This document shows, piece after piece, positions 10,117 through 59,827 of a stretch of DNA of 64,000 nt. Numbering within the stretch: the stretch's first letter is position 1; every line of letters starts with the position of its first letter. The DNA comes from Rhizobium sp. Root708. Its GTDB lineage: Bacteria > Pseudomonadota > Alphaproteobacteria > Rhizobiales > Rhizobiaceae. The translations under genes were made by a program, and so were the position numbers. Below the pieces are notes generated by a model that searched no databases, was not told the origin of the DNA, and saw nothing but the letters and a program-made list of their open reading frames with translations. The stretch is taken from assembly GCF_001429725.1 (NCBI RefSeq), contig NZ_LMHV01000041.1, positions 124,001 through 188,000 on the forward strand, in the 5' to 3' direction.

Positions 10117-10295
10117 TCAATTGCATCAAAAGGACGGCTCTGGCCCACCGCTATGACCGCACCCGAAACCCCCAATGTTGCGGCGCAAATATATTGCCGC
10201 AGCGCATCAAAAATAGCTTGAAAGAGGGTGATTCGTCTGGAACTCTGCCTTTGGTATCGCGTTAGACATTCGCATCCTTGCACTGGAGATCGGCG

Positions 10296-10559
10296 ATGAC
10301 GGAAACTCAGGAAGAGTGGATCAAAAAGCGCGCCTATGCGCTTTGGGAAGAAGAAGGTCGCCAAAGCGGCCGAGACCACATCCATTGGGAACAGGCCAAG
10401 CGGGAACGCGCGGCACTTGAAGGGTCGGCCGCCTCGGTCGACGGAAAAGAAGTGAAAAATCGCGCCAAGCGCGCTGCCAGCGCGCCCAAATCCAACGGCG
10501 CCGCGAAGGATGTTCCGAAGACCGAGGCAAAGCGCGGTTCGGTTCGAAAATCCGCCTGA
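10296..10559 (+). CDS. DUF2934 small hydrophilic protein
   Basis: An 87-residue protein. The first 40 residues contain the DUF2934 signature (WIKKRAYALWEEEGRQSGRD, then HWEQA), followed by a Lys/Ala-rich disordered tail with basic repeats such as NRAKRAA. The ATG at 10296 is used because a GGAGAT site precedes it. Such proteins are frequent in rhizobial genomes, and their function is unknown. It is followed by a compact inverted repeat. The adjacent small genes at 10762-11418 suggest a stress-type small-protein neighbourhood, which is inference. Confidence 0.75.
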   Translation: MTETQEEWIKKRAYALWEEEGRQSGRDHIHWEQAKRERAALEGSAASVDGKEVKNRAKRAASAPKSNGAAKDVPKTEAKRGSVRKSA

Positions 10560-13149: not shown

Positions 13150-14355
<1,206 letters not shown>

Positions 14356-14356
14356 T

Positions 14357-15139
14357 TCAAGCGGCCTCCTTGTCGCCCTGATGGGCCTTCTTCGTGCGCG
14401 CGTTGATGTCGCGCAGCGTCGCAAGCTCCGTCTCGGTTGGAACGGGCGTCTCGATCACATGGTCGGCGAACCTGATCGCCCAGCCGCAGTTTTCGACAAT
14501 CTGCTCGCGGCTGACGCCATGATGGATCGACACGACCGTCAGCTCCTTCGTCACCGGATCGGGCTCGAGGATGCAGAGATCGGTGATGACCCGCGTCGGT
14601 CCCTTTGTTTTCATGCCGAGGCGCTCGCGATGATTGCCGCCTTCGCCGTGGCCCATGGAGGTGATGAAGGGCAGCTTTTCGACGAAGCCGCGCTTGGAGA
14701 GCGCCATGGTGATGAAGATCTGGCCGCAATTGCTGGCAATTTCCGGCGCACCGCCGCCGCCCGGCAGACGAACCTTCGGATGGTCGTATGGGCCGACGAC
14801 GGTGGTGTTCAGATTGGCGAACTTGTCGATCTGGGCGCCACCGAGAAAGCCGGTGGTGATGCGGCCGCCCTGCAGCCAGTAGCGGAACATTTCCGGCACC
14901 GAGACGGTAAACAGAGCGGTGTCGCAGAGTTCGCCGTCGCCGATCGAGAGCGGCAGCACATCGGGTTTCGTGCCGACGGTGCCGCTCTCATAGATCAGCG
15001 TCATGTCGGGCGCATGTGTGAGACGCGCAACGTTGCAGGCCGCCGACGGCGCGCCGATGCCGACGAAGCAGACATCTTCGTTGGTAAGGGCACGCGCGGC
15101 CGCGATGGTCATCATTTCAGTGGGGGTAAAATCGCTCAT
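14357..15139 (-). CDS. pcaJ: 3-oxoadipate CoA-transferase beta subunit
   Basis: A 260-residue small subunit of the class I CoA-transferase that moves CoA from succinyl-CoA to 3-oxoadipate. The catalytic Glu51 lies in the YESGTVG motif, and the oxyanion loop GGGGAPEIA is present. The start MSDFTPTEMM at 15139 is preferred over an in-frame upstream Met because it fits the family and clears the pcaI stop by 10 bases. It acts with PcaI as a cytoplasmic heterotetramer. The tail is longer than in acetoacetate transferases and ends AHQGDKEAA. Confidence 0.95.
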   Translation of the reverse strand: MSDFTPTEMMTIAAARALTNEDVCFVGIGAPSAACNVARLTHAPDMTLIYESGTVGTKPDVLPLSIGDGELCDTALFTVSVPEMFRYWLQGGRITTGFLGGAQIDKFANLNTTVVGPYDHPKVRLPGGGGAPEIASNCGQIFITMALSKRGFVEKLPFITSMGHGEGGNHRERLGMKTKGPTRVITDLCILEPDPVTKELTVVSIHHGVSREQIVENCGWAIRFADHVIETPVPTETELATLRDINARTKKAHQGDKEAA

Positions 15140-15149
15140 CCTGGCCTCC

Positions 15150-15998
15150 TCACGCAACCTTCTTCGCATGCCCGGCGAAATCATCCGGACCTGCCTGCAT
15201 GACGTTCTCGTCGATCCATTTCAGGAAGCTGTCACGATCGCGTGCGATCTCGTCCCAGGCGATATAGAAGGCATTCGAGCGCGGATAGTAACCCTGAGCG
15301 TAAGACGGAAAGGCACCGCCCGGAACCTCGGCGACGGCAGTCACGGCCCAGCTCGGAAGCACAACGGAATTCGGAGATGGCGGATCGAGTTCGTCGACGA
15401 TCTCCTCGACCGTGACGATCGATCGCTTGGCCGCAAGAACCGCCTCCTTCTGGACGCCGACAATGCCTTCAAGCAGCACGTTGCCCTTACGATCGGCGCG
15501 CAGCGCGTGGATGATCGTGACATCGGGGCGGATCGCCGGGACCGCAGCCAGCACCTCGCCGGTGAAAGGGCATGTCACCGACTTGATATTCGGGTTCACC
15601 TTCGGAAGATCGGCGCCGATGTAACCGCGCAATGCCGCGAACGGCAGGTTCGCGGCGCCCGCCTCATAGGCATTGGCCATCGCGGCATGGCTGTGTTCCT
15701 CGATCTCCAGCGGTCGCGGCCACTGGTTTTCCACGGCATCGCGAAAGCGGTGCAGCGAACCGACACCGGGATTGCCGCCCCAGGAGAATTTCATGCCACG
15801 AGCTGCACCTACGCCGATCAACTGATCGTAGAGGATATCCGGGGTCATGCGAATGAGGAAAAGATCCTTCTTGCCCTGACGGATCACTTCGTGACCGGCG
15901 GCATAGGGAATGAGATGGGTGAAGCCTTCCATGGCAACCGTGTCGCCATCCCTGACGTTTTCGGCAACGGCTTCCTTCAACGATACGATCTTCGCCAT
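15150..15998 (-). CDS. pcaI: 3-oxoadipate CoA-transferase alpha subunit
   Basis: A 282-residue large subunit of the succinyl-CoA:3-oxoadipate CoA-transferase. It starts MAKIVSLKEAVAENVRDGD with a GGGAGGCC ribosome site just upstream. It has the conserved EGFTHLIPYAAGHE stretch and the CoA-binding SWGGNPGVGS loop. First gene of pcaIJF. A PcaR-like operator lies about 90 bases upstream, consistent with induction by beta-ketoadipate through the IclR-family regulator found at 56901. Normally pcaR is close by; here it is 40 kb away. Confidence 0.95.
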   Translation of the reverse strand: MAKIVSLKEAVAENVRDGDTVAMEGFTHLIPYAAGHEVIRQGKKDLFLIRMTPDILYDQLIGVGAARGMKFSWGGNPGVGSLHRFRDAVENQWPRPLEIEEHSHAAMANAYEAGAANLPFAALRGYIGADLPKVNPNIKSVTCPFTGEVLAAVPAIRPDVTIIHALRADRKGNVLLEGIVGVQKEAVLAAKRSIVTVEEIVDELDPPSPNSVVLPSWAVTAVAEVPGGAFPSYAQGYYPRSNAFYIAWDEIARDRDSFLKWIDENVMQAGPDDFAGHAKKVA

Positions 15999-16086
15999 AT
16001 GGCCTCCCGCACTCTTCTGTCGAATGCGCGCCAATAAGCGCCAGTGCCGGCGTATGGTCAAATATTTTGTGCGTTATTTGATATTT

Positions 16087-16101
16087 GTTCGTATATCGCA
16101 C
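16087..16101. promoter_or_regulatory. Probable PcaR operator upstream of pcaI
   Basis: The 15-mer GTTCGTATATCGCAC matches the Pseudomonas putida PcaR-box consensus GTTCGATAATCGCAC, as I remember it, at 13 of 15 positions. It lies about 90 bases before the pcaI start. A GTGCG half-site in opposite orientation about 25 bases away adds partial dyad symmetry. It should be the site where IclR-type PcaR activates pcaIJF. Confidence 0.65.
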
Positions 16102-16303
16102 ATTGAAGCACTGAGTTTGCGGGCCAGCGAGCTGATCGCTTACCTTCGAACGACTGCTGGCTAGTTCACACGGGAATGAATGCGCCGTGACAGGCTCGCG
16201 GCAATTCCCACGGGAACCGTTCCGGCAAGCATCCTTCGCGCAGCAATCGCACCGGCTTTCCAGTTGTCGTTGGGTGTCTCGCTTTTTCGGCTATCTCATC
16301 AAG

Positions 16304-16341
16304 CGACTGGTCCGGCTCTCTTGCAGCAGCCGGACCAGTCG
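16304..16341 (-). terminator. Strong hairpin after the small secreted protein gene
   Basis: A perfect 14-bp stem (CGACTGGTCCGGCT / AGCCGGACCAGTCG) with a 10-base loop begins 6 bases beyond the stop of the leftward gene at 16347. There is no T-run, so it may act as a 3' stabiliser or a factor-assisted terminator. Confidence 0.55.
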
Positions 16342-16346
16342 ATTCG

Positions 16347-16703
16347 TTAGCGGATCCAGAAGGTCATGCTGCCGTCGGCGGCCTGCTCGACGTTGACCAC
16401 GTTGTCGACGGCGATGCCCTTGGAGGCAAGCTTCTCGGAAAGCGGCTTGTTGGACTTGATGGCGGCCTGGATGTGCTGGACACCTTCCGTGGTGCGCGGT
16501 GCTGCGGTATCCTCCGCGTCCGGCTGATCCTTCTGGTTCTGATAGTCGTTGAGATACTTGACGTCGAAGCCCTGGTCGAAAGTCGCCAGCGTCTTTTCGA
16601 TCTGCGGGCCGTCGTTCATCGCGAGGCTGTCGGCGTAGCTGGCGCTCGCGAAAGCAAGCGTGGAGAAAGCGGCAGCGATTGCGAAGCTTGAAATGCGGTT
16701 CAT
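16347..16703 (-). CDS. Small secreted protein of unknown function
   Basis: A 118-residue protein. A signal peptide (MNRISSFAIAAAFSTLAFAS, cleaved near SYA-DS) leaves a mature part of about 92 residues. The mature part contains an acidic, Gln-rich region (YLNDYQNQKDQPDAEDTAAP) and a C-terminal half that reads like a periplasmic beta-structured domain (IAVDNVVNVEQAADGSMTFWIR). The start at 16703 is supported by an AAAGGA ribosome site; the longer in-frame ORF is not. I do not recognise a family. It has a strong hairpin right after the stop. Confidence 0.65.
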   Translation of the reverse strand: MNRISSFAIAAAFSTLAFASASYADSLAMNDGPQIEKTLATFDQGFDVKYLNDYQNQKDQPDAEDTAAPRTTEGVQHIQAAIKSNKPLSEKLASKGIAVDNVVNVEQAADGSMTFWIR

Positions 16704-19420: not shown

Positions 19421-19560
19421 GTGCCCGATCAAGAAGTGGGGTACCGCGACTGCTTACAAATGAAACGCGTTACTCGCGTTCTGATGTCGACGCGACATAA
19501 GCTGGAAGCATCCTGTCTCGGCCGGGCTCTTGATGATGGCCGCGGACCAGGAGAACGCTT

Positions 19561-20670
19561 TTGAGAATACTGATTGTTGGAGCAGGCATTGCCGGTCTCG
19601 CCGCGGCCCGCGCTTTGGAAATACACGGTCATCGGGTCAACATCGTCGAGCGTCACACCGAGTCTCCCGTCGCCGGGCAAAGTATCTTCCTCCTCGGAAA
19701 CGCGATGCGCGCGCTCGGCGATTTGGGGCTGCAGGAGCAGGTCCGCGCACAGGCTTGTCCAATCGGCGCGCAAACGATCATGTCATCCCGAGGCAAGGTC
19801 CTGAATCATGTCGTTACAAATGATCTCTGGGACTCCTGCGGGCCGTGTGTCGCACTCCATCGCCGCGCGCTCATCGAGGTAATCCAACAATCGCTCGCCA
19901 ACACTCAGATCGACTTTGGAACCTCGGTAATACACACGATTTCGAGGCCGGAGTGCCGTGAGGTCTACTTCTCCGACGGTCGCGTGCAGGAATATGATCT
20001 CGTGATCGGGGCGGACGGGCTTCGTTCATCGATCCGCGCTTCTGCCTTTCCGGAGAGTGTGCCCAAGCCAACCGGCCTGTTCGCATGGCGCCTTTTGACG
20101 CAAAACAGGTACGGGATCGAAGGGTGGACGGCGATGCTCGGCGCGGGCAAAACGCTTCTCGCCATACCGCTGAACGATTCAGAGCTTTATCTCTACGCGG
20201 ATTCTTTCGCCAAGGACTTTGGCGACGGTTCGATTTCCGCTCTCAAGGCAGCATTCCGGGATTTCGCCTCACCCCTTGGCCCGATCGTCGCAAATCTGTC
20301 GGATGTCATCGACGCGCATCGATCAGCGATCGAGGAAGTTCCCTTCAGTACGTTTATCGCCGGCCGGCTCGCCCTGATTGGAGACGCCGCCCATGCTTCA
20401 TCTCCCAGCATGGCGCAAGGCGCTGGGATGGCGATAGAGGACGCAGTCGTCCTGGCGGAATGCATCTCTCGACCTCAGCCCGTGACGAGCGCCTTGTCGC
20501 AATTTCACGAGTTGCGCAAGCATCGCGTTGCGTGGGTTCAGAAGCAGAGCCGCAATCGCGACAGACTGAGAACAGCCCCCGATCTTGTCCGGAACATGCT
20601 TCTCGGTGTTCTCGGCAACCGCTTGTACCATGTCGCCTACGACTCCCTGATCGAACCGTTCCCTCGCTGA
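19561..20670 (+). CDS. FAD-dependent monooxygenase (PHBH/salicylate-hydroxylase type)
   Basis: A 369-residue flavoprotein. Its N-terminal Rossmann loop is IVGAGIAGLAAARAL. A DGxRSSIR motif (GADGLRSSIR, about residue 151) and a second FAD motif LALIGDAAHASSPSMAQGAG (about residue 276) follow, so all three group A hydroxylase signatures are present. It should hydroxylate an aromatic or similar ring using NAD(P)H and oxygen. The start is a TTG at 19561 preceded by an AGGAG site. It follows the LysR gene in the same direction, which may make it part of the same regulated unit. Substrate is unknown. Confidence 0.85.
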   Translation: MRILIVGAGIAGLAAARALEIHGHRVNIVERHTESPVAGQSIFLLGNAMRALGDLGLQEQVRAQACPIGAQTIMSSRGKVLNHVVTNDLWDSCGPCVALHRRALIEVIQQSLANTQIDFGTSVIHTISRPECREVYFSDGRVQEYDLVIGADGLRSSIRASAFPESVPKPTGLFAWRLLTQNRYGIEGWTAMLGAGKTLLAIPLNDSELYLYADSFAKDFGDGSISALKAAFRDFASPLGPIVANLSDVIDAHRSAIEEVPFSTFIAGRLALIGDAAHASSPSMAQGAGMAIEDAVVLAECISRPQPVTSALSQFHELRKHRVAWVQKQSRNRDRLRTAPDLVRNMLLGVLGNRLYHVAYDSLIEPFPR

Positions 20671-20934
20671 CACTGGCAACACGAACGCATCTTTGCGACG
20701 CAGCGCTGACGCCCAGCGCCTCCCGCGCTCACGTGTGAAAAGGGCTGGTTTGAACAAGAAGCCGAACCGGACGCGAGAACAGTTGGCGCCCGCCGGACAC
20801 GCAAGAAATAACCCTCGCAACTCGGGTCGGTTCGTCGAGGACAATTGCATCTGAAACCCGCATCTCTGGATTCGAAATTCGGCTCTTTTGCTCGCCCTCC
20901 ATCGTTACATTGCCAACATGAACTGGAGGGCGCC

Positions 20935-21747
20935 ATGCATCTGAGAGCGAATGAGCTTTATTCCGAGCTCCATGAGTCAATCGGACAGTTCACCGACACC
21001 TGGGAAAAAATTGTCTTCGATTATGGCGCTGGCGCGGTCTGGAATCAGAACGGTCTGGCCCGGCGGTGGGCAGATAGCGACTTTCGCCTATTCAACTCGA
21101 TCACGCTCGTCGAACCGGTCTTCAAGAAAGAGGCACTTACACAACGGCTTCTCGCAGGACGCGAGTATATGGAGCGGCGAACGAGACCAGGCTACTTCTG
21201 GCTCTTCGAGGAGCTTCTGACAGTGGAGCTACGTCATCAGCTCCCCGCCCTTGCCCGTGAGGTTGGACTTGAGGTCGCAGAAACAGCCTACGGCATGGCG
21301 AGCAACTGGATACCTCAAGCGCCGCCATCGCACCCATCGCTTACATTCGTTCGCGTGGCGAGCGAGCAGCACCTCCTGGCCTATGCCGACATCAATTCAG
21401 CCGCCTATGGCCTGCCGAGCGAAAGCGGACGAGACGGGATCTCTCGTTCCATGCTGTTGCGTGAAGATGCGTTCGCGTATCTGGCGCTGAAAGATGGCGT
21501 ACCGGTCTCTACGGCGGCCGCAATCGAGACAAACGATCGGCTGGTTATCGCACTGGTCGCGACCAAGCCAGGCTTGCAGCGACGTGGATTCGCCGAGGCG
21601 ACGGTCAAGAAGGCCTTATACGAAGGACATCGCGCGGCCGGCCTCACACGGTCGGTCCTTCACGCTTCCGAGGGAGCACGACCGCTGTACGAGCGGCTTG
21701 GCTACCATTGCACCTCGACGATACGGCTTCTCGCCCGCAAGGGGTAA
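20935..21747 (+). CDS. GNAT-family N-acetyltransferase
   Basis: A 270-residue protein whose C-terminal half has the acetyl-CoA-binding core of GNAT enzymes: LVIALVATKPGLQRRGFAEA (beta4 and the Arg/Gly pyrophosphate loop), then the final LYERLGYHCTSTIRLL. The N-terminal half (residues 1-115) is helical and without a clear family. The start at 20935 has a CTGGAGGG ribosome site; a longer in-frame start at 20845 has none. Substrate cannot be assigned. Confidence 0.8.
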   Translation: MHLRANELYSELHESIGQFTDTWEKIVFDYGAGAVWNQNGLARRWADSDFRLFNSITLVEPVFKKEALTQRLLAGREYMERRTRPGYFWLFEELLTVELRHQLPALAREVGLEVAETAYGMASNWIPQAPPSHPSLTFVRVASEQHLLAYADINSAAYGLPSESGRDGISRSMLLREDAFAYLALKDGVPVSTAAAIETNDRLVIALVATKPGLQRRGFAEATVKKALYEGHRAAGLTRSVLHASEGARPLYERLGYHCTSTIRLLARKG

Positions 21748-23531: not shown

Positions 23532-23948
23532 ATGACGACGATCGACAAAGTGCTCTATACCGCCAAAACACACGTGACCGGAGGTCGCGACGGTTTTGCG
23601 AGGAGCAGTGACGAGCAGCTTGTGATCAGGCTCTCGCCTCCCGGCAGCAATCACGCCGGCACCAATCCCGAGCAGCTTTTCGCGGCTGGCTGGTCGGCCT
23701 GCTTCATTGGCGCAATGAGCCATGCTGCGGCGAAGCGCGATATCAAGATTCCGGCCGATACCGCCGTGGACGCGGAAGTTGACCTCGGAATGACAAACGG
23801 CGGCTATCTGCTTCAGGCAAGATTGCGCGTCACTCTACCTGGCCTTGATGGCGAAACCGCTCGCAGCCTTGTCGCCGAGGCGCATCAGAATTGCCCATAC
23901 TCCAAAGCAACCCGCGGCAACATCACCGTCGAGATATCAGTCGTTTGA
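23532..23948 (+). CDS. ohr: OsmC/Ohr-family organic hydroperoxide resistance protein
   Basis: A 138-residue protein of the Ohr subclass. It has the peroxidatic Cys57 in GWSACFIGAM and the resolving Cys121 in HQNCPYSKATRG, plus the NPEQLFAAG helix. Such enzymes reduce organic and fatty acid hydroperoxides using lipoyl-dependent thiols. The usual MarR-type regulator OhrR is not beside it, so control is not visible. It may form a unit with the preceding hydrolase, but 275 bases and a hairpin separate them. Confidence 0.9.
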   Translation: MTTIDKVLYTAKTHVTGGRDGFARSSDEQLVIRLSPPGSNHAGTNPEQLFAAGWSACFIGAMSHAAAKRDIKIPADTAVDAEVDLGMTNGGYLLQARLRVTLPGLDGETARSLVAEAHQNCPYSKATRGNITVEISVV

Positions 23949-24448: not shown

Positions 24449-25204
24449 TCAGACGGTCCTTTGATTGGCGGGTACGCGCGACTGATTGACGTGGGCAGAG
24501 AAGACATAACCTTCGCTCCGCACGGTCTTGATGTAGGCGGGATCGCGGGCGTCGTCATTCAGTCTCTGGCGGAGCCGGCTGACGAGCAAGTCGATAGAGC
24601 GGTCGAAAACATCCGCGTCCTTGCCTTGGCTGAGATATAGAAGTTGATCGCGGCTGAGCACGCGATGCGCGTGATCCAGAAACACCTTGAGAAGCCGATA
24701 CTCCCCTCCGCTGAGCGCAACCGACGTTCCTCCCTTATCGAAGAGACGACGGGCAGCGGTATCAAGCATCCATTTCCCAAAGGCCACTACATCGGGCAGC
24801 CCCGCCTCGCTCAAGTTCGGCGGCATCATTCGCGCGCGCCGCAGGATTGCATTGATGCGTGCCAATAGCTCACGAGCGGAAAACGGCTTCGTCAGGTAGT
24901 CATCCGCTCCCATCTCAAGCCCAAGGATTCTATCCGCATCATCCGATCTCGAGGTAAGCATGATGATCGGTAGCGAACGTTCCTTCATCGAGCGCAATTC
25001 CCTGCAGAGCTCGAGCCCGTCATCTCCCGGCATCATGATATCAAGAACGATCAAATCGAATGCGTTTGCTTCCAGGTGGCCGCGCATCTGACGACCGTCG
25101 GCGGCCGCCGTTATGCGGAATCCGTTCTTTCTAAGGTAATCAGATATGAGTTCGCGGATATCACGGTCATCATCCACGACAAGTATGTGATCGATGTGGT
25201 CCAT
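24449..25204 (-). CDS. OmpR/PhoB-type response regulator, no adjacent kinase
   Basis: A 251-residue regulator with an N-terminal receiver (acidic patch DDD at residues 11-13, phospho-acceptor Asp55 in LIVLDIMMPG, Lys in TKPFSARE) and a C-terminal winged helix (about residues 140-235) of the OmpR family. The usual histidine kinase gene is not next to it. The EnvZ-type kinase at 34474 also lacks a partner and is a candidate by elimination. Targets are unknown. Confidence 0.9.
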   Translation of the reverse strand: MDHIDHILVVDDDRDIRELISDYLRKNGFRITAAADGRQMRGHLEANAFDLIVLDIMMPGDDGLELCRELRSMKERSLPIIMLTSRSDDADRILGLEMGADDYLTKPFSARELLARINAILRRARMMPPNLSEAGLPDVVAFGKWMLDTAARRLFDKGGTSVALSGGEYRLLKVFLDHAHRVLSRDQLLYLSQGKDADVFDRSIDLLVSRLRQRLNDDARDPAYIKTVRSEGYVFSAHVNQSRVPANQRTV

Positions 25205-26739: not shown

Positions 26740-28206
26740 CTACCTGTAGTTCGTGGACGAGACGGGACGCTGCGCCGTCGCGACACTGACGAGCAACGCC
26801 ACCAGCACGTTCAACGTCAACGCTATGAATCCGGTATTGACCTGCTTGATCATGACGGGAGCACCGGGAAAGAAACTCGAAATGGTCAGGCCGGTTGTTA
26901 CGACCACGCCGACAGTGCCGACCCCAACGATAATGCCGGCCGCCGCCCCCTCCTTCGTGAAGGGATTCCTGGGCAACAAACTGGCGAAGAGCGCGGGAAA
27001 CAGTTGGGTCACGATGCTGTAGCCCATGATCAGGATGGCGACGATACTTTCTCCCCCGACAAGGGTGAAGTAGACAGCAACGGTGCTGATCAAGACGACA
27101 GACAGGCGCGCGGACGTCGTTGCGCCTTTATCGGACATAGCGGGTGCCAGGCGTTTGACGATATTGGTCGATATCAGTGTCGAGCCGACGATCAGGATCG
27201 TCGAACCGGGAACTAGTGCGGTGAGAACTCCCGCAGCTCCGATGACACCGACGAACCACGGATCGAAGGTCTTGATGGACAGTTTCAGGAGAGCGAGATC
27301 TATCTCGCCGCCTTGCAGTCCGGGCACCTGCAAAACGGCAGCAAACCCCACCAGCATCGCGAACAGCATAACCAGGGCGTAAAGCGGCATAAAGACGGCG
27401 TTTCGCCGAAACGCGGCGTCTGTTTTCGAGGTGTAGACCGACGAGAATGTGTGCGGCCACATGTATAGACCGAGGGCGGACAGAGCGATCGTGCTACAGT
27501 ACCAAACGATCGTTTCCCCGGCATCCGGCAGCGAGAGAAATCCCGGCTTCGCGATCTCGATCTGCGCAAACATTTCGCCGATGCCACCGTAGTAGTGATA
27601 GGGAAGATAGATTCCCAGAAACGCGCAGATCACCCAGGTCGTGCCGTCTTTGACTGTCGCCGCCCAGGCCGATCCCCGCATGCCGGATGCGATCACGTAT
27701 AACGCCATAACCGCCGCCCCGACGATGATTGCGACCGCATGGGGTATTTTACCGTCCGACACCGTCTCCGCTATGATGCCCAATCCTTTCAGCTGCAGGA
27801 TCAGGTAGGGAATCAAAGCAACCAAGCCGACGATCGTTACCAACAGCCCCAGACCGGAACTCTGGTACTTCTGCTCGAAAAAATCCGGTTGGGTGACTAA
27901 CCTTCTCTGACTGGCGAAGCGCCAGATCGGAGGCAGCAACCAGTACGAGGAAATGAACGCCAAGCAGGTGTAGGTTAAAATGTAGAACGCGGCCCCGCCC
28001 TTCCCGTAGGCGAATCCGCTGGCTCCGAGGAACGTGAATGTCGTGTAAATCTCGCCAGCCATAAGGACGAAGACGAGCAGGGCTCCAAAGCGTCTTCCGC
28101 CGAGCGCCCACTGTTCGAGACTGATAGGCCGTTGGGCTCGTCCCAGATAGCCTACGAGCATGATGCCAGCAGTGATTCCGAAAACGAAGAGGAGCGCGAT
28201 GTTCAT
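26740..28206 (-). CDS. Sodium:solute symporter (SSS family, monocarboxylate-type)
   Basis: A 488-residue permease with about 13 transmembrane segments. Typical SSS features include GGRRFGALLVFVLMAGEIYTTF near the N-terminus and the conserved Na-site helix region (ALVPGSTILIVGSTLIS). It should couple Na+ entry to uptake of a small carboxylate or related solute. Its start overlaps a 60-codon ORF stop in an ATGA arrangement, and the DUF3311 partner follows it. Substrate is unknown. Confidence 0.85.
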   Translation of the reverse strand: MNIALLFVFGITAGIMLVGYLGRAQRPISLEQWALGGRRFGALLVFVLMAGEIYTTFTFLGASGFAYGKGGAAFYILTYTCLAFISSYWLLPPIWRFASQRRLVTQPDFFEQKYQSSGLGLLVTIVGLVALIPYLILQLKGLGIIAETVSDGKIPHAVAIIVGAAVMALYVIASGMRGSAWAATVKDGTTWVICAFLGIYLPYHYYGGIGEMFAQIEIAKPGFLSLPDAGETIVWYCSTIALSALGLYMWPHTFSSVYTSKTDAAFRRNAVFMPLYALVMLFAMLVGFAAVLQVPGLQGGEIDLALLKLSIKTFDPWFVGVIGAAGVLTALVPGSTILIVGSTLISTNIVKRLAPAMSDKGATTSARLSVVLISTVAVYFTLVGGESIVAILIMGYSIVTQLFPALFASLLPRNPFTKEGAAAGIIVGVGTVGVVVTTGLTISSFFPGAPVMIKQVNTGFIALTLNVLVALLVSVATAQRPVSSTNYR

Positions 28207-28650: not shown

Positions 28651-29304
28651 ATGGCTCGAATTATCATCGTCGGAAACGGCAGAGTTGACAGAAGGTTTGC
28701 TTCCACAATTGATGCGGCAGATCTGGTCGTGCGTTTGGACGACTGCCGATCGCAAGGGGTTGCCGGAACAAGGACCGATATCGTGGCGGTTCGCAATTTC
28801 GGGCAACCGGCAAGATCGGTGCTTGAATCGCGGAAATGGCAATCCCAGCCTGCCGTTCAGCAGGCAACCGAGATCTGGGGCCTCAACGATCCGAAGAAGT
28901 TCAACGCGATACGGCCGCTGGTGGCGGTGTTGCATCCGGAATTGCGCGACTTTTGCGACGACCACTCAGGCGAATTTGATCGACTGTGTGCCGCGACTTC
29001 AAAGGTCTTTCGTGTGGTCGATGAACGGCTGCATGATTGGGTCGACGACGCTCTTCGCTTCTATGGCCCTGGACCCTACCTGGTGCCGAGCAGCGAGATT
29101 ATTCTGGTCGCCGCCGTTCTCGACAGGTTCTCTGGGGCTAACGTGACCATCGTAGGCCTTGAGCACTCCGGCCCCCCATACCATCCATTCGCTGCCGAAC
29201 GACGACTTGTCGACGAATATGTTGCGGTAGGAAAGCTCAGACGACTGGCGTTTGCCCCACATCGCTGGCCAAAATCCGCGCAGGTCGCCGAGAGCCATTG
29301 GTAG
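28651..29304 (+). CDS. Rhizobial urease-operon-accessory-type protein (GT29-like fold)
   Basis: A 217-residue protein starting MARIIIVGNGRVDRRFASTI. The pattern IVGNG...ID.AD.VVR.DDCRS...GTRTDI resembles the nucleotide-sugar-binding part of sialyltransferase-family (GT29-like) proteins, which in rhizobia are often named urease operon accessory proteins. No urease gene is present here. A later VTIVGLEH strand and a Lys/Arg-rich end follow. It could be a small glycosyltransferase; the activity is unproven. It precedes the virG-like gene. Confidence 0.65.
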   Translation: MARIIIVGNGRVDRRFASTIDAADLVVRLDDCRSQGVAGTRTDIVAVRNFGQPARSVLESRKWQSQPAVQQATEIWGLNDPKKFNAIRPLVAVLHPELRDFCDDHSGEFDRLCAATSKVFRVVDERLHDWVDDALRFYGPGPYLVPSSEIILVAAVLDRFSGANVTIVGLEHSGPPYHPFAAERRLVDEYVAVGKLRRLAFAPHRWPKSAQVAESHW

Positions 29305-29346
29305 CGACCTCATCCGATGGCTGCCGCTTTCTCCGTGTCAGAAAAT

Positions 29347-29389
29347 TGCATTTGTAACAAAGCTTTGCCGATTGAAACGCATTTGAAAT
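29347..29389 (+). promoter_or_regulatory. Three vir-box-like sites upstream of virG homologue
   Basis: Three 12-mers resemble the Agrobacterium vir-box consensus TNCAATTGAAAY: TGCATTTGTAAC (29347), GCCGATTGAAAC (29367) and CGCATTTGAAAT (29378). Each matches 9 of 11 defined positions. They start 20 and 11 bases apart, close to two and one helical turns, so they lie on one face of the DNA. They end about 110 bases before the virG-like start and suggest autoregulation. Confidence 0.6.
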
Positions 29390-29500: not shown

Positions 29501-30223
29501 GTGAAACACATTCTCGTCGTCGACGATGACAGCAAGCTTCGCGGTCTTCTCATCGATTACCTGTCCCAGCACGCTTTCAGGGTCACCGGGGTCAAGGATA
29601 GCCATCAACTCGGGCAGGTGCTGCAAGCCGAGCCCGTGGACCTCATTATCGTCGATCTGAACCTCGGCCACGAAGATGGCCTCGAGATTGTCCGCACGCT
29701 GTCCGGGAGGTCTGATGCTCCCATCATCATCATCAGCGGCGATCGGCTCGAAGAGACCGACAAAGTCGTCGGGCTGGAACTCGGTGCGTCCGACTATGTG
29801 ACAAAGCCATTTGGACTGCGCGAATTCCTTGCGCGCGTCCGCGCCGCGCTCAGAGTTCGTCCCGTGGTTACCGATCGCAGGGAACGAAAGATCTACGCCT
29901 TCGACAAGTGGACATTGAACGTCAAGAAGCGACAGCTGATGTCGGCGGAGGAGAGCGAAGTCAAGCTGACGGCGGGTGAATTCAATCTCTTGATCGCCTT
30001 CCTCGATGCGCCGCGCCAGGTTCTGTCGCGAGAGCAGCTGCTTTCCGCCAGCCGTGTTCACGACGAGGAAATCTTCGATCGGAGCATCGACGTCCTAATT
30101 CTCAGGCTGCGCCGTAAATTGGAGACCGATCCCTCGACACCAAAGCTCATCCGCACCGAACGAGGCGCCGGGTACATTTTCGATAGCGACGTGGCTATCG
30201 AGGCTAGAAGGCGCCAGAGATAG
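29501..30223 (+). CDS. virG: VirG-like OmpR-family response regulator
   Basis: A 240-residue regulator. The receiver has DDD at residues 8-10, phospho-acceptor Asp52 in IIVDLNLGHEDGLEIVR, and the block IIIISGDRLEETDKVVGLEL. The C-terminal winged helix has VKLTAGEFNLLIAFLDAPR and VLSREQLLSASRVHDEE. These blocks closely match my memory of Agrobacterium VirG, including the Asp position, more closely than general OmpR proteins. The GTG at 29501 follows an AGGGGG site. It is paired with the VirA-like kinase at 30429 and has vir-box-like sites upstream. No virB, virC, virD or virE genes are visible, so its regulon is unknown. Confidence 0.8.
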   Translation: MKHILVVDDDSKLRGLLIDYLSQHAFRVTGVKDSHQLGQVLQAEPVDLIIVDLNLGHEDGLEIVRTLSGRSDAPIIIISGDRLEETDKVVGLELGASDYVTKPFGLREFLARVRAALRVRPVVTDRRERKIYAFDKWTLNVKKRQLMSAEESEVKLTAGEFNLLIAFLDAPRQVLSREQLLSASRVHDEEIFDRSIDVLILRLRRKLETDPSTPKLIRTERGAGYIFDSDVAIEARRRQR

Positions 30224-30428
30224 GCGCCCTCGTCGGCTTCTATCTGTCGACGGAAGCCTAGCGTTCGCCGTGTGATCAACTATACCAACGTATCGGTTGT
30301 GCGGTATCGGCCTGGGGTTCCAATATGACTGCGTATATGTTTTAGGCGTTTCGAAGAATCCGCGTGAAAGCCCGTGCAGCGAGCCGCACCTGCTCCCTTG
30401 CCCACGACCGGACCCAGTTGGTTAGACG

Positions 30429-32972
30429 ATGGAAATAAGCCCACGACCGCCAAGGCGGCGAGCAACGGTTGAATTATGGCGCATAGCCGTACTCGTCGTG
30501 GGAGCTCTTTGCTTCGCCTTGCTTGCCCTCGGTCGCGTTCCGTCCCGAGATACCCATGAGGCTATCCTCACGTCGCTGCGCGCGATCGACGTGAACCATG
30601 CGTCCCTCCAGCGTGACGTTCTGCAGGCCAGGGCCGGCCTCCTTAGAAGCTACGACCCCTTGGTAAGATCCATCTCGGATCTGCGCGCCACCGTGAACCG
30701 ACTGAGATCGGTATTCCCCGAGAGCGGCGTGGAAAACATTCCGGCCCTCACCATGGAATTGAATGCCCTGTCGGGGTCGATCGATCGTGACGAAGAGCTG
30801 GTAGAGCGTTTCAGAAAGGACAACACACTCCTGCAGACCTCGCTCACTGCAGCCAATCAACTGCTCACCGAACTTCACGAAAGCAACGACCCCGCCATCA
30901 AGGAGGCGGTCGGTAGGTCCGTCGATCTTGGCAATCTGATGATGCGGTTTACCACCGAGCCGAACGAGAGATTGGCGCGTGCAATCCAGGACAAATTAGG
31001 CGCAATGCTTCGGTCCGATAAAGCCGTTGATCCGAGCATCGTTTCGTATGTCGCCCAGGCACGCACAATCCTGACCGCACTTCCGGCCGTGGACGATACG
31101 ATCCAGGCCATACAGGCGTCGAAGACATCCTACGAAGCGCAGATACTTCAGAAGCAATATCTGGATGCTTACGGCTTGATCAGCGTCCGATCGTCGTGGA
31201 GCCGGACATTGCTCGGCTCCATCTCGGTCTTCCTGTGCATCTACATCGGCATCCTCGTTTACCGCTTGCGGGCGCAAACCCACCGGCTGACGCAGCAATT
31301 GGATCTCGAAACGTTGACGGCGGACATAAGGCGACGGTTCGGTGACGATACCGACGACGTTTCGGCACCTCTTGTCGATTGCCTGTCGATCGTCGCCGAC
31401 TTCTTCGATGCCAGCAGATACAGCTTCTTTATCGTCGACAGCAGAACGAAGATGATCATGTCGAGCTATGGAGAAACGGACCAATCCGCTTTGGCTCCTC
31501 TTCTTCAGCGGCACTCCGAACAAATTTCGACGGCAACGATGAAGGAGCAGCTCCACTGGGACCGCTTCTACTACCACAACCTGCAGCAATCGGAGATTCT
31601 GGCATTTCCCGAGGGGGCGATGAGTGCCGGTTCGGTTGTCGCCGCCAGCATAGACGCCGACTCTGTTGCGCTGATGTTTCTTGAACACAAGGACCTCCGC
31701 AGCAAGCCCGGCGGAGACGAAATCCGTCTTCTTGGCCACGCAATCATCACGCTGGCACAATGCATAAAGGGCCAGCGTGAACGAAGGGAGCGGCGGCAGC
31801 TGGAGGCCAGGCTCGAACATTCTCAGCGTCTTGAAGCATTGGGCACATTGGCTGGCGGCATTGCTCACGAATTCAACAACACCTTGGGTGCGATCATGGG
31901 CTACGGCGAGATGGCGCTCCACCTCAACAATCGCACCTCTCGCACACGGCAGTATCTGCAGGAAATTGTTTCGAGCGGACATCGCGCGAAACATATCATC
32001 GATCAAATTCTGACCTTCAGCCGCAAACGAGAGCGAGTAAGTCGACCCTTCGACTTGAAGGAAGCGATCGATGACATTGTGCCGTTGGTGCAGATGTCTA
32101 TTCCGGCGGGAATATCCGTAACCGCAGCGATCGCCGACGAGATGCCGGCCATTGTCGGCAATCCGCTGGAGCTGCAACAGGCCATCATGAACCTGTGCAT
32201 GAATGCGGCGCAGGCGTCCGGAGAAGAAGGACGCATTCGGCTCACGGCCGAGCGGATAGAGATCGCCGGAGATACGCCGCTCTCACACGATGTGCTTCCT
32301 CGCGGACGATACATAATGATTGATGTCACCGACAACGGAAGCGGCATTGCGCCTGGCCTTCTGCGCCATGTTTTCGAACCTTTCTTCACGACCAAATCGA
32401 AATCCGGCGGGACCGGCTTGGGTCTGGCGGCTGTTCACGGCTACGTCACCGGGATGAATGGGAGAATCCATGTCGAGAGCACGCCGGCGACGGGAACGAC
32501 CTTCAAGCTCTATTTTCCGTTTACAGCGGAAAACCCCGTTCCACTCGCCCAGTTCTTCGATGAGCGAACTGTCCCACTTGGCGACGGGCAAGTGGTTGCG
32601 TTGGCGCAAAGAGACCAAAGCCTACGGCTGATGTTCGAGGAGAAAATTGCAGCACTTGGATACGAGCCGGTCGGATTTTCAAACCTCGCCGCCCTGCGGA
32701 AATGGATCGCAGACGGTGAGCGGCATCCTGACCTGATCGTCTTCGACCTGGATATTTGGCAGTCCCCGCCGGACCTGGAAGCAGTGGCTCAGGAATATCC
32801 GTTTGGCTCGACACTTTTCCTCACCGATCCGGCGCGCGACGGACTGGATCCAAGGCGCTTTCCGAGTGTTCCAACCCTGCGAAAACCTGTCAGCGCGAAC
32901 AGTCTCGCGACCACGCTTTCGAGGCTGATCGAGACCAAGATGGTGGCGATCGATTCAAGATCGGAAGGCTGA
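30429..32972 (+). CDS. virA: VirA-like hybrid sensor histidine kinase
   Basis: An 847-residue kinase with VirA layout and length (Agrobacterium VirA is about 829). It has a first transmembrane helix at about 18-36, a helical periplasmic domain of about 220 residues, a second helix at about 260-278 and a GAF-like linker (about 290-445). The kinase domain has His480 in AGGIAHEFNNTLGAIMGYGE, followed by the VTDNGSGIAPG ATP box, the FFTTKSKSGGTGLGL region and a C-terminal receiver-like domain with VFDLD and LRKPV. VirA senses phenolics and, with ChvE, sugars; the ligand here is not proven. It lies 205 bases after the virG-like gene in the same direction. Confidence 0.82.
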   Translation: MEISPRPPRRRATVELWRIAVLVVGALCFALLALGRVPSRDTHEAILTSLRAIDVNHASLQRDVLQARAGLLRSYDPLVRSISDLRATVNRLRSVFPESGVENIPALTMELNALSGSIDRDEELVERFRKDNTLLQTSLTAANQLLTELHESNDPAIKEAVGRSVDLGNLMMRFTTEPNERLARAIQDKLGAMLRSDKAVDPSIVSYVAQARTILTALPAVDDTIQAIQASKTSYEAQILQKQYLDAYGLISVRSSWSRTLLGSISVFLCIYIGILVYRLRAQTHRLTQQLDLETLTADIRRRFGDDTDDVSAPLVDCLSIVADFFDASRYSFFIVDSRTKMIMSSYGETDQSALAPLLQRHSEQISTATMKEQLHWDRFYYHNLQQSEILAFPEGAMSAGSVVAASIDADSVALMFLEHKDLRSKPGGDEIRLLGHAIITLAQCIKGQRERRERRQLEARLEHSQRLEALGTLAGGIAHEFNNTLGAIMGYGEMALHLNNRTSRTRQYLQEIVSSGHRAKHIIDQILTFSRKRERVSRPFDLKEAIDDIVPLVQMSIPAGISVTAAIADEMPAIVGNPLELQQAIMNLCMNAAQASGEEGRIRLTAERIEIAGDTPLSHDVLPRGRYIMIDVTDNGSGIAPGLLRHVFEPFFTTKSKSGGTGLGLAAVHGYVTGMNGRIHVESTPATGTTFKLYFPFTAENPVPLAQFFDERTVPLGDGQVVALAQRDQSLRLMFEEKIAALGYEPVGFSNLAALRKWIADGERHPDLIVFDLDIWQSPPDLEAVAQEYPFGSTLFLTDPARDGLDPRRFPSVPTLRKPVSANSLATTLSRLIETKMVAIDSRSEG

Positions 32973-32988
32973 GACGACCGTGGCGCCG

Positions 32989-34416
32989 TCAGTCCGCGCC
33001 GTAGCGAAGAACGTCGGGCTTCGCCAGAAAATAGATACCGAGACAAACCGCAAGGACGCTGATCGCGAGGAGATAAAAGACGTGCGACTGAGGGTGGAGG
33101 TTCAACAGCATGGCGATCATCAGCGGTGTCGTACCGCCGGCAACCGCATAGGTGACGTTATAGGAAAACGACACTCCTGAGAAACGCACTGCGGGCGGAA
33201 AGCACGACACCATCGCAACGGGAACGCCAGCAATGATTGCGCCGCAAAATCCAATCAGGGCGCTCAGTGCATAGACATATGACGGCTCGACCATGGCAAC
33301 GCTGAAAAACGCGCAACCGCCAACAGCCAAGAGCCCTCCCCCCAAAAGGAAAAACCAGCCAGCCCCGACCCGATCGTAGACCAGCCCTCCAACCATGACG
33401 CCGACTCCCAGAAAGATCGAACTGGTCGTCGTCGAGATCATCGCTGTTGACCGCTCGAAATGATGAGCGCCTTGAAGGATCGTTGGAACCATCAGCGTCA
33501 AAATCACCACGGAGCCCGAGAGGATCCAGGTGCAAATAGCGGAGATAGCCACTCCACGAAGATGGGTGCGAATGACCACACCGATCGGAAGCTCGGGAAC
33601 CAGGACCCTTCGCGCTCGCAGCGCGACGAAGATGGGGGTCTCATGGAGCATCCGCCGCAGTCGAACAGCGACAAAGCCAAACACCCCTCCGAGGAGGAAA
33701 GGTATGCGCCATCCGAAGTCCAGCATGGACGCCGGAGACAGGACCAGGGAAAGCAGACCGGACAGCCCAGCTCCAACAAACACACCCACGCTCAACCCGG
33801 CGCAAACAAGCGCGCACGCAACCGCCCTGCGGTTATGGGGAACGTGCTCGGCGACAAAGATCCACGCGCCGGGAACCTCCCCCCCAATGGCGATGCCTTG
33901 TGTAATCCTCAGCACGACCAAAAGAACAGGAGCCACTGGGCCGATCATCTTATAGGTCGGCAACAGGCCAACACCGAGCGTCGAAGCGGCCATGAGAAGA
34001 ATTGAAAAGGCGAACACCCTTTTCCTGCCGAACAGGTCGCCGAAATGCGCGAGAACAATGCCGCCCAGCGGACGAAAAACATATCCGGTGGCGAAGATCC
34101 CGAAGGTCTGCATGGTAGCCAACCATCGCGGAAGACCCGGAGGAAAGAAAAGTACGCTTATGATGTCCGCAAAAAAAACGAATATAACAAAATCATAGAA
34201 CTCGAGCGCTCCGCCGGCTGCTGCTATTCCAAGCATGCGAACCACGCTGCGCGGTTCCTGTTCGTGTTGAGACGAGACCTCCCGGCTGGCAGAGGTGTGA
34301 GCATCATGCTGGGTCAATGTAGCGAGGCCATAAGAATTGTATCGAAGTTTCAGAGGTCCTAATATTGAACCGCCGCCAATGTAAGCCGAATTCTGATTAC
34401 ATCTGAAAGAGAGCAA
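32989..34416 (-). CDS. MHS-family MFS transporter
   Basis: A 475-residue major facilitator with about 12 transmembrane segments. Its hallmarks are the metabolite:H+ symporter block GGALEFYDFVIFVFFADIIS, the GxLxDRxGRK-like loop (ALAHFGD-type LAHFGDLFGRKRV) and RITQGIAIGGEVPGAWIF. Relatives import citrate, 2-oxoglutarate, shikimate, proline betaine or aromatic acids by proton symport. The true start is uncertain: the first 60 residues are hydrophilic and no ribosome site precedes 34416. It converges on the virA-like gene with 16 bases between. Confidence 0.85.
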   Translation of the reverse strand: MLSFRCNQNSAYIGGGSILGPLKLRYNSYGLATLTQHDAHTSASREVSSQHEQEPRSVVRMLGIAAAGGALEFYDFVIFVFFADIISVLFFPPGLPRWLATMQTFGIFATGYVFRPLGGIVLAHFGDLFGRKRVFAFSILLMAASTLGVGLLPTYKMIGPVAPVLLVVLRITQGIAIGGEVPGAWIFVAEHVPHNRRAVACALVCAGLSVGVFVGAGLSGLLSLVLSPASMLDFGWRIPFLLGGVFGFVAVRLRRMLHETPIFVALRARRVLVPELPIGVVIRTHLRGVAISAICTWILSGSVVILTLMVPTILQGAHHFERSTAMISTTTSSIFLGVGVMVGGLVYDRVGAGWFFLLGGGLLAVGGCAFFSVAMVEPSYVYALSALIGFCGAIIAGVPVAMVSCFPPAVRFSGVSFSYNVTYAVAGGTTPLMIAMLLNLHPQSHVFYLLAISVLAVCLGIYFLAKPDVLRYGAD

Positions 34417-34473: not shown

Positions 34474-35769
34474 TCAAGCTGACGCCAGAGCAGCTTCCGA
34501 ACGCGGAGTTTCCAACGCTTGCGGGGCGGTGGCCGATAGTATCAACTCGGCAATCAACCCGCCGCCGGCCCGCCGACGAAGGTTGAAATTCGCACCCAGG
34601 CTGGCAGTAAGTTGCTGAGCAATTGCCAGACCGAGGCCTGTCCCCTGGACCTGGCCCGTCGCCGACTGCGCGCCTCTCACAAAGGGCTTCTTGACCCTCT
34701 CGAGCAGTTCCTCCGCTATACCGGGGCCACGGTCCAACACCGAAATCACGATTTTGCCGTTGTCTTTGTGCTCAACACGCACTTCGGCAGCGCCGGAAAA
34801 CTTGAGCGCATTGTCGACGAAATTCGTGAGCGCGCGCCGCAACGCCTGAGGCCGGGTCATGATCACGCCGCCCACATTGCCGATAAGGCTCACGGCGCGC
34901 TCGGTTTCCTGATAGTCCGTGACAAGGCAATCGATGAATGCGTGCAGATCAACGGACTTGATTTCCTCCTGCCTCACATGCGCATTTCGCGCATAGGCCA
35001 TTCCCTCTCTGATCAGCCGTTCAGTTTCATCAAGATCTCGCAAGAACTTCTCCCTATCCGGAAACGTGTTTGCCAGCTCTGCTCGAAGTCGCATCCGGGT
35101 GATCGGTGTCTGCATGTCATGAGAGAAGGCGGAGAGCATTTGAATCCGCTCGTCCATATGGCCTCGCATGCGGCGACGCATCGTATTGAATGCCCTCGCC
35201 ATGGCAGCCACCTCGGGTGGTCCATTCTCTTCCAGTTCATGGCCGAGACGTTCAGGCCCCAATGCACTGACGGCTGAGGTGATTTGCGACAGTGGCCTGA
35301 TTGTCGTGCGGATCACATAAGCGAACATCAGACCGATCAGCAGCAGAAGAACGATATGGCTTCCCACCATTGCCGTCAGCGGATCGACAGTCGCTGCCGG
35401 AAATTCCAGCCGCGCAAAAGACGGCACAGGGGCCGCGATTGCATCGAACTCCGGACGATCAGCTTCGGCCCGTTGGAACAATCCGGCTGGGAAACGCTCC
35501 GGCATGCGCTGGGATTGATACCTGGGATCGAGGACCATTTGATCGGTGAGTGCGGCATACTCTACAGGCGTCGCCCTTTCCAATTGCGGATCGCGACGCT
35601 CATGCAAGGTCCCCCGCATCTGGTACACGCCGAGTGCGAGTGCTCCGTGCGCCAGCAATACTCCCGCCATCGTTACGAATATCAGTCGGTCCCGCATAGT
35701 GCTGAGCCTGGGCCTGACACTCGGTTTAGGGAAACCGTGCATTCGAGAATCTGAAAATCGGCTGGCCAT
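34474..35769 (-). CDS. EnvZ-type sensor histidine kinase, no adjacent regulator
   Basis: A 431-residue kinase with two transmembrane helices (about 29-47 and 137-155) flanking a periplasmic domain of about 85 residues. A HAMP domain follows, then an H-box with His217 in FSHDMQTPITRMRLRAEL, a NALKFSGAAE N-box, a DRGPGIAEE G1 and GTGLGLAIAQQLT. This order is that of EnvZ-like kinases. The start at 35769 is chosen because upstream codons in the same frame look non-coding. No response regulator adjoins it; that at 24449 is a possible partner. Confidence 0.85.
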   Translation of the reverse strand: MASRFSDSRMHGFPKPSVRPRLSTMRDRLIFVTMAGVLLAHGALALGVYQMRGTLHERRDPQLERATPVEYAALTDQMVLDPRYQSQRMPERFPAGLFQRAEADRPEFDAIAAPVPSFARLEFPAATVDPLTAMVGSHIVLLLLIGLMFAYVIRTTIRPLSQITSAVSALGPERLGHELEENGPPEVAAMARAFNTMRRRMRGHMDERIQMLSAFSHDMQTPITRMRLRAELANTFPDREKFLRDLDETERLIREGMAYARNAHVRQEEIKSVDLHAFIDCLVTDYQETERAVSLIGNVGGVIMTRPQALRRALTNFVDNALKFSGAAEVRVEHKDNGKIVISVLDRGPGIAEELLERVKKPFVRGAQSATGQVQGTGLGLAIAQQLTASLGANFNLRRRAGGGLIAELILSATAPQALETPRSEAALASA

Positions 35770-36076
35770 CGGAATCTCTGTGGTTGCTTTACTGACGTGT
35801 CGGGCTGCTATCCCCGAGGGCATCCTTTGAAGCCCTCGATCGAGGTCAGTAGTGCGTTCCCAAAGCCATGCTTTCGTTTCAGATCCGGTCGGATGTATTT
35901 CGTCTGTAATGAGGGGTTTATTCCGAGGCGACACCCGGAGGATCGCCGGCGTTTGTATCCTCGTATGTCGTGGCCGCCGAAACTTACACGACATTGCAAA
36001 AACTGCGGTCTTCCGAAATTCACCAGATACATACGGGGCCAACGATCCGGGACAAACAAAGTCTCGGAGATTGGCG
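35770..36076. other. Divergent promoter region between kinase and SDR
   Basis: About 310 bases separating the leftward EnvZ-type kinase and the rightward SDR. It should hold both promoters. No vir-box-like or other recognised operator was seen. In-frame upstream extensions of both genes pass through it but have no protein-like character. Confidence 0.4.
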
Positions 36077-36931
36077 ATGAAGCAACGTTGGTTGGTAACT
36101 GGAAGCTCCAAGGGTCTTGGCCGTGCGCTCGTCCACGCCGCCTTGGAAAGCGGACATCATGTTGTTGCGACCGCTCGCGACACCGATGGGTTCGCGGATC
36201 TGTCGCTCAAGTACGGCGATCGAGTGATGATCCTGCGCTTGGACGTGACGAACGCCGACGAAGTTTCCGCAACTGTCGAGAGAGCTGTCGATCAATTCGG
36301 CGGGCTCGATGTTGTCGTCAACAATGCGGGATACGGCACGATCAATTCCATCGAAGATGCGACGCTGGCAGATATACGAAATGAGATCGAAACGAACCTG
36401 TTCGGGACCATCATGGTCGCCAAGGCGGTGATCCCGGTTTTCCGAGAACAGCGCAGTGGCCATTTCATCAACTTTTCCTCGGTGGGCGGACGCCTCGGAG
36501 CACCGGGTCGTGGTGCTTACTCCGCCTCGAAATGGGGTGTGGAAGGTTTCTCGGAGGTCCTCGCCGGCGAAATGGCTCTGTTTGGCGTCAAGGTGACGAT
36601 CATCGAGCCGGGTGGCTTCAGAACGGACTTCGCAGGCGCCTCGACCACGCTGAATTTCGGACGTCCAGAATACGATCAGGTCGTCGGCGCTGCCGCCAGA
36701 ACACAGCGCGCCTATGACGGACGCCAACCCGGCGATCCTCAGAAGGCCGCTCAGGCGATCTTGCAAGTCGCTCGAGCCAATGCACCCCCGCTCAGGCTCG
36801 CGCTGGGAAGCGACGCCGTAAAAGCAATCCGCGCTGCAAGCCAGCGGCGGCAGATTGAGCTCGATGGCTGGGAGGAGCTCAGCCTTTCCACCGACTTCGA
36901 GCAAGTTCGCACGCCTCAAAAGACGAATTGA
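36077..36931 (+). CDS. Classical SDR-family oxidoreductase
   Basis: A 284-residue enzyme with WLVTGSSKGLGRAL, VVNNAGYG, an active-site Ser in INFSSVGGRLG and YSASKWGVEG. The IEPGGFRTDFAG block after the Lys is typical of the long C-terminal SDR subgroup (17-beta-hydroxysteroid-like). The start at 36077 has a CGGAGA site; longer in-frame starts do not. It should act on a ketone/alcohol with NADP. It ends before a strong terminator. Substrate is unknown. Confidence 0.88.
   Translation: MKQRWLVTGSSKGLGRALVHAALESGHHVVATARDTDGFADLSLKYGDRVMILRLDVTNADEVSATVERAVDQFGGLDVVVNNAGYGTINSIEDATLADIRNEIETNLFGTIMVAKAVIPVFREQRSGHFINFSSVGGRLGAPGRGAYSASKWGVEGFSEVLAGEMALFGVKVTIIEPGGFRTDFAGASTTLNFGRPEYDQVVGAAARTQRAYDGRQPGDPQKAAQAILQVARANAPPLRLALGSDAVKAIRAASQRRQIELDGWEELSLSTDFEQVRTPQKTN

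Positions 36932-58630: not shown

Positions 58631-59827
<1,197 letters not shown>

Follow-up and report, generated by a model that had tools for sequence, protein, structure and literature searches.

VirA/VirG, whose sensor lets crown-gall bacteria turn on DNA transfer, is a textbook inter-kingdom signalling system, and to our knowledge its history before the transfer of T-DNA (transferred DNA) is open. Here we analyse a response regulator and a sensor kinase of the soil bacterium Rhizobium sp. Root708, encoded next to each other in a stretch of 64,000 nucleotides (the window, to which all window coordinates refer; Table 1). Judged from its sequence, this is a genuine VirA/VirG-family pair, and it likely regulates the uptake and oxidation of compounds, probably derived from plants, rather than DNA transfer. 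The family assignment is in itself ordinary; what is of interest is that, by comparison with relatives, VirA/VirG seems to have arisen before virulence, in a module that includes an unusual haem protein.

The VirA/VirG systems of Agrobacterium Ti (tumour-inducing) and Ri (root-inducing) plasmids and of vir-type rhizobial plasmids share with the window pair the family, the domain order, the His and Asp residues, the VirG blocks and a vir-box promoter. However, the window kinase is 37-38% and the window regulator about 65% identical to theirs, the pair lies outside their clade and differs at several sensing residues, its two genes are adjacent, and its genome has no match to VirB4 (E<=1e-60). 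Two-component pairs of the same family have been described in other rhizobia, in Mesorhizobium loti R7A (PMC4486765) and on Rhizobium etli p42a (PMC8554961); in the accessible portions of these papers both control a symbiotic type IV secretion system, in contrast to the window genome, where no VirB4 was found, and the R7A proteins are likened to ours by description only. Outside the window clade, the closest proteins are found in cassettes of non-virulent Rhizobiaceae (for example Sinorhizobium sp. B11, Rhizobium sp. WYJ-E13, R. johnstonii) that combine a VirG-like gene, a di-haem cytochrome-c-peroxidase-like gene (ccp; PF03150) and a VirA-like gene. Identity to the window proteins reaches 66% for the kinase and 89% for the regulator in B11, and 58% and 81% in WYJ-E13, and in both strains the cassette has a major facilitator superfamily (MFS) neighbour, as in the window. 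Unlike these cassettes, the window lineage has no ccp gene, only a possible relic of one.

The regulator scored 405.8 bits against the VirG equivalog model of NCBIfam (NF010430, cut-off 344) and the kinase, of 847 residues, 758.1 bits against the 'VirA-like sensor kinase' model (NF010411, cut-off 647), both over cut-off. The corresponding scores were 204 bits for OmpR, 200 for TorR and 90 for TorS, which rules out the general OmpR/TorS-type pair with which an earlier note on this DNA had proposed to compare the two proteins. That note had placed both genes correctly, although the regulator could possibly start further upstream, at the in-frame GTG of 29456. Pfam recognised a receiver and a winged helix in the regulator, where Asp52, Asp8/9 and Lys102 are present, as well as GDRLEETDKVV, starting at residue 80, and VKLTAGEFNLL, starting at residue 154; Asp52 and these exact blocks had been pointed out before, and both blocks are identical in octopine VirG. 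In the C-terminal DNA-binding stretch 41 of 51 residues are identical to the octopine protein.

In the kinase, DAHL, HisKA and HATPase_c were all over the Pfam cut-off, as they were in VirA of strain C58, and alignment to VirA indicates that the counterparts of its H474, the phospho-acceptor, and of D766 in its receiver are kept. The canonical VirA order of DAHL, linker, HisKA, HATPase_c and receiver is thus found, with the linker fold and the receiver recognised through the VirA alignment only. Indeed, at E<=0.001 Pfam detected neither a GAF domain in the linker nor a receiver in the window kinase, so that the GAF-like linker and receiver-like domain proposed earlier were not retrieved as such; the receiver end does keep the D766 position, and relatives do score (GAF and receiver over cut-off in locus L089, sub-threshold receivers in L143 and L145). 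Structure predictions for four sequences gave a mean pLDDT (predicted local distance difference test) of 44 and were not used.

Table 1. Features of the window, with their positions and the basis of their assignment.
Feature	Position	Strand	Basis or remark
pcaF	13150-14424		about 15 kb from the pair
vir box, 1 mismatch, ahead of FAD monooxygenase gene	19453-19466	no strand	in intergenic gap
FAD-dependent monooxygenase, predicted target	19561-20670	+	Pfam FAD_binding_3; vir box upstream
vir box, 1 mismatch, about 78 bp before GNAT ATG	20844-20857	no strand	in intergenic gap
GNAT-family acetyltransferase, predicted target	20935-21747	+	Pfam Acetyltransf_1; ATG at 20935
Sodium:solute symporter	26740-28206	-	neighbour also in L017, L077, L080
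Exact vir box ahead of regulator gene	29345-29358	no strand	sole exact match in window
Second vir-box-like site, 2 mismatches	29376-29389	no strand	31 bp from exact box
VirG-like response regulator	29501-30223	+	NF010430 VirG score; Asp52; VirG blocks
Possible relic of ccp haem-2 region, 25 codons, haem motif and frame destroyed	30277-30351	+	tblastn
VirA-like sensor kinase: DAHL periplasmic domain, linker, kinase core, degenerate receiver	30429-32972	+	NF010411; Pfam domains; purifying selection
MFS transporter, frequent kinase neighbour	32989-34416	-	homologues often with upstream vir box
RND permease	50237-53344		about 17 kb from the pair
pobA	58655-59827		about 26 kb from the pair

The Root708 genome (6.29 Mb in 44 contigs, 99.98% complete) holds no close second copy of the pair, since the next-best matches within it are only 30% (kinase) and 46% (regulator) identical. 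A whole-genome search with the VirB4 model (NF010427) gave no match at E<=1e-60, the virC, virD and virE families not having been searched. As far as VirB4 tells, this rules out a type IV secretion system (T4SS) or vir operon just beyond the window, and the absence of virulence genes claimed from the window alone was to that extent borne out. By comparison, VirB4 was over cut-off in 21 of 52 genomes with a VirA-like kinase, in 17 of these 21 on the same contig as VirA.

At E<=1e-110, a VirA-like kinase was present in 40 of the 148 genomes from the genus and in 13 of 394 drawn from the family; at E<=1e-100, nine of 397 drawn from the order had one, seven of these nine belonging to five other families; only one of the seven genomes had a VirB4 match, and this was below cut-off. 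Distribution was taken from these genome searches because a single-protein search for related loci had returned five loci, three of them full-length relatives. Two Rhizobium records of the plasmid collection, BG6 and R. grahamii, match the region at 91% DNA identity, and isolate AFS038290 (L023) is another close relative.

We placed the kinase in a tree of 43 rows, leaving out near copies, kinases without a periplasmic domain and four partial, long or odd sequences (L031, L070, L090, L099). Its deep forks are weak. The VirA proteins of vir regions formed one clade (support 100/100) nested among ccp-linked kinases, with L021, a locus where the virG and ccp close to the kinase look broken, as its sister (100/99), and the window clade joined L024 (98/91) and L017 (100/99) outside the vir clade. 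The VirG tree (52 rows) likewise recovered one vir clade (98/97) that excludes the window regulator, here grouped with L024, although one long-branched outgroup row, L010, strayed into the family. Approximately unbiased (AU) tests rejected a grouping of the vir proteins with the outgroup, both for VirA (p 0.0035) and for VirG (p 0.0037). A quick VirA tree of 60 rows kept the kinases without a periplasmic domain and the four sequences just named, and was cleared of seven near copies; in a further quick tree, to which the seven loci from other families had been added, six of these lay at the base. As vir VirA/VirG are nested inside a larger family, the trees point to virulence as the derived use. 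The phylogeny that the earlier note had called for accordingly keeps the pair inside the wider VirA/VirG-like family but outside the T4SS-linked clade, and points in the opposite direction to the word 'recruited', with its implied descent from a virulence system.

The pair might instead be what remains of a Ti/Ri-like or symbiotic vir region that has disappeared, its regulators left in place after deletion of the secretion system. Family membership and vir boxes agree with such an origin, and leftovers of vir regions do occur: a truncated VirA, L099, fell within the vir clade of the quick tree, and its genome has no VirB4 over cut-off. Nevertheless, neither the window kinase nor the window regulator belongs to the vir clade, a topology joining vir, L021 and the window clade was rejected (AU test on VirA, p 5.8e-5), and the nearest relatives bear ccp cassettes with no T4SS adjacent. 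With the VirA and VirG trees both disfavouring it, we regard this origin as very improbable, and consider that the pair, which lies outside the virulence clade, most likely regulates catabolism and transport. L099 itself (8595-10361, genome G428) encodes a VirA without a periplasmic domain and has an exact vir box upstream; the only VirB4 match of G428 is the one below cut-off.

In several annotated relatives the gene order is virG, ccp and virA-like, often with overlaps. Among 38 full-length Rhizobiaceae kinase loci not tied to a vir T4SS, ccp lies directly upstream of the kinase gene on the same strand in 32 (-40 to +271 nt), four of which are near copies (L025, L077, L082, L100). In these 32, virG is upstream of ccp in 22, downstream of the kinase in five, and inverted, distant or not seen in five. 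The six exceptions are the window, L023 and L079, which form one clade, L021, L071, where ccp is about 2 kb away together with virG, and L073, a contig edge at which the presence of ccp cannot be judged. All seven loci from the five other families carry the gene: in six it is directly upstream, and in the seventh it lies 0.7 kb downstream. By contrast, none of the 16 vir-type loci, 14 of which have an over-cut-off VirB4 on the same contig, has ccp within 1.5 kb of virA; this count leaves out L105 (C58 virA, flank absent) and five VirA matches in vir-bearing genomes (G397, G438, G442, G455, G525). Distances between CCP proteins and between kinases correlate over 36 loci (r 0.86; none of 2000 permutations as high). 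Downstream of the L021 kinase (NZ_CP104990.1), sister to the vir clade, a broken-looking virG and ccp occupy 15089-16552, and this ccp is possibly on its way out.

None of six kinases lacking the periplasmic domain has ccp beside it, and Pfam found no DAHL in the five of them that were scanned. Five DAHL-less kinases (L019 20405-22438, L081 5051-7039, L082 16643-18676, L098 8978-10891, L101 8712-10634) form one clade in the quick tree; three share a locus with a full-length kinase, and no ccp lies beside them. In open-access papers searched for VirA-like kinases, a linked CCP or the DAHL domain, most subscription papers being outside the search, we found no account of a VirA-like kinase with a CCP; two of the papers retrieved (PMC9747090, PMC13024110) are unrelated, judged by title and abstract. 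According to the accessible text of one study, R. tropici CIAT 899 and PRF 81 lack VirA/VirG homologues and have one di-haem CCP each (PMC3557214).

The CCP-like protein was surveyed in 40 module copies, including near copies and leaving out the broken one of L021. All 40 retain the two CxxCH motifs and the inter-haem Trp, and 35 keep the Gln (His in four, Ala in one). In contrast, the Glu that is catalytic in solved bacterial peroxidases has given way to another residue in 39 copies (26 Leu, 6 Ile, 4 Val, 2 Gly, 1 Met), being kept in L143 and also in L104, a paralogue outside the module. As the accessible portion of a study of gonococcal CCP describes this Glu and the Gln as important and variants of them as inactive (PMC10094543), the module protein is probably not a classical peroxidase, and it may be a co-sensor of the kinase. 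Alternatively it could be a working enzyme rather than a co-sensor, a peroxidase or oxidase of phenolics that is co-regulated with the pair, as the retention of both motifs, the Trp, most of the Gln residues and the Glu of L143 would suit; di-haem enzymes with other chemistry exist, as far as the accessible text of PMC6405878 goes. Against an enzyme stand the replacement, in 39 of 40, of the Glu used for O-O cleavage, the reported inactivity of the bacterial variants (PMC10094543, as above), the position of ccp directly before the kinase gene, and its absence beside all six kinases without a periplasmic domain. We hold the enzyme to be a serious possibility, somewhat short of an even chance.

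In the window no di-haem CCP-like gene precedes the kinase: the genes of the pair are separated by a gap of 205 bp. Neither the Root708 genome (G000) nor its sister G415 has any CCP match at E<=0.001, and the sister G508 has only a paralogue at 36% identity, which rules out that ccp moved elsewhere in the Root708 genome. The window lineage has lost the ccp gene and kept the kinase. Between the two genes tblastn picked out a suggestive candidate relic (Table 1), whose score was reached by four of 500 shuffles for the window, none of 500 for L079 and one of 500 for L023, the three loci not being independent. An open frame ending at 30472, the position expected of the ccp stop, does not clearly resemble CCP. 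In comparisons among the three genomes that lack ccp, the ratio of nonsynonymous to synonymous substitution rates (dN/dS) is 0.079-0.096 for the kinase and 0.061-0.079 for its DAHL domain, compared with 0.094 and 0.140 in a ccp-bearing pair. The kinase is thus still under purifying selection, and its decay after the loss of ccp is ruled out.

The consensus of the vir box, as given in the accessible part of PMC11351099, is RTTDCAWWTGHAAY. The exact box ahead of the regulator gene compares with 0.05 expected in the window (mean of shuffles) and is one of three exact sites in the genome, and its 31-bp spacing from the second, less perfect site recurs in L017 and L024. With at most one mismatch there are three sites in the window against a shuffle mean of 0.58, a number reached by one of 100 shuffles, and they stand at predicted target promoters, those of the regulator gene itself and of two other genes, encoding a monooxygenase and an acetyltransferase. 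Across the family, an exact box precedes virG in seven of 33 loci, where 0.009 would be expected; three of the seven make up the window clade. Boxes with at most one mismatch reach 42 family-locus promoters in 34 loci, whereas 399 permuted palindromes averaged 0.65 and reached 19 at most, and the hit-to-site ratio was matched by two of the 399; near copies L023, L079, L077 and L082 were dropped from this count, which is also without near copies L025 and L100 and missed L090. By family these promoters belong to MFS transporters (11 loci), virG (10), GMC oxidoreductases (5), FAD monooxygenases (4) and alpha/beta hydrolases (4), so that in relatives the boxes concentrate before transporter and oxidoreductase genes. 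The metabolic service of a VirA/VirG-family pair without virulence genes, as suggested by the earlier note, is in our view probable.

Several observations weigh against the reading of the pair as a metabolic regulator of pre-virulence ancestry. The window MFS gene has only a two-mismatch site (34396-34409), and in 26 of the 33 loci the roughly 220 bp that precede virG contain no exact box. The genome holds 39 one-mismatch sites, more than the 10 of a reversed-pattern control but fewer than the about 57 extrapolated from window shuffles; a single site may therefore be due to chance and means little without position and conservation. In the trees, the kinase outgroups span the kinase core only, and the groups submitted to AU tests were chosen with a first tree already in view. 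As to the other two exact matches in the genome, neither of which was counted as a target, one is at the 3' end of a kinase gene; the other (L107 1501-1514; C7:197881-197894) lies between divergent genes that resemble znuC and znuA by translation and is probably the palindrome of another regulator.

At VirA positions related to signalling the window kinase has a gap for W355, Leu for Y293, Gln for R289, Ala for K298, Gly for E430 and Ser for E255. In the accessible portions of two papers, W355 is needed for the response to acetosyringone and Y293 and R289 belong to a signal node (PMC9149312), and K298 and E430 are signalling-related (PMC4030172). Several residues tied to phenol or sugar signalling in VirA are therefore not conserved, which goes against the phenolic sensing claimed earlier, and plant phenolics are as ligands a fair guess, judged from family and context only. 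A true VirA-style phenolic sensor that answers acetosyringone-like compounds would share the VirA domain order, as the window kinase does, and could account for an FAD monooxygenase among the predicted targets, from a family that includes many phenol hydroxylases; yet with these six residues missing or replaced we find such a sensor possible but doubtful.

The phenolic-acid pathway halves and the RND pump between and near which the earlier note had placed the pair do exist, but only loosely around it (Table 1), and the pca and pob genes are too distant to form one locus with it. A ChvE equivalog is encoded in the genome (576.7 bits, cut-off 460). Flanking the pair, about 9 kb apart, are a second OmpR-type response regulator (24449-25204, -) and a HAMP-type histidine kinase (34474-36111, -), which may form a split second system. 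An Ohr-family organic hydroperoxide reductase gene (23532-23948, +) lies about 6 kb from the pair. The protein encoded at 28651-29304 (+) has no Pfam or NCBIfam match; its L017 homologue is annotated 'urease operon accessory protein', and homologues recur near VirA-like kinases, that of L019 with a one-mismatch vir box upstream.

We propose that inputs from the periplasm, on the DAHL domain, and from the cytoplasm, on the linker, would drive autophosphorylation of the kinase, and that the phosphate would pass to Asp52 of the regulator, which would then bind vir boxes, boost its own expression and switch on catabolic and transport genes. In most relatives the gene of the di-haem protein with the replaced Glu immediately precedes that of the kinase, and the protein may provide the input to the periplasmic domain; the kinase of the window lineage would work without ccp, possibly with ChvE, and the T4SS-linked VirA/VirG is a nested branch likewise without ccp within 1.5 kb of virA. 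More tentatively still, the Agrobacterium virulence sensor might descend from an order-wide metabolic module in which the Glu-less CCP-like protein served the kinase as co-sensor in the periplasm, responding to peroxide, phenoxyl radicals or redox state and acting on the DAHL domain, and the vir and window lineages might independently have dropped this partner and kept the kinase, opening the way to different periplasmic partners such as ChvE. The data thus offer a testable origin for VirA/VirG, as a regulator of transport and oxidation genes that occurs in six families of the order and is usually coupled to an unusual di-haem protein, and the window strain and its two sisters amount to natural experiments, having lost the haem partner while selection on the kinase persisted.

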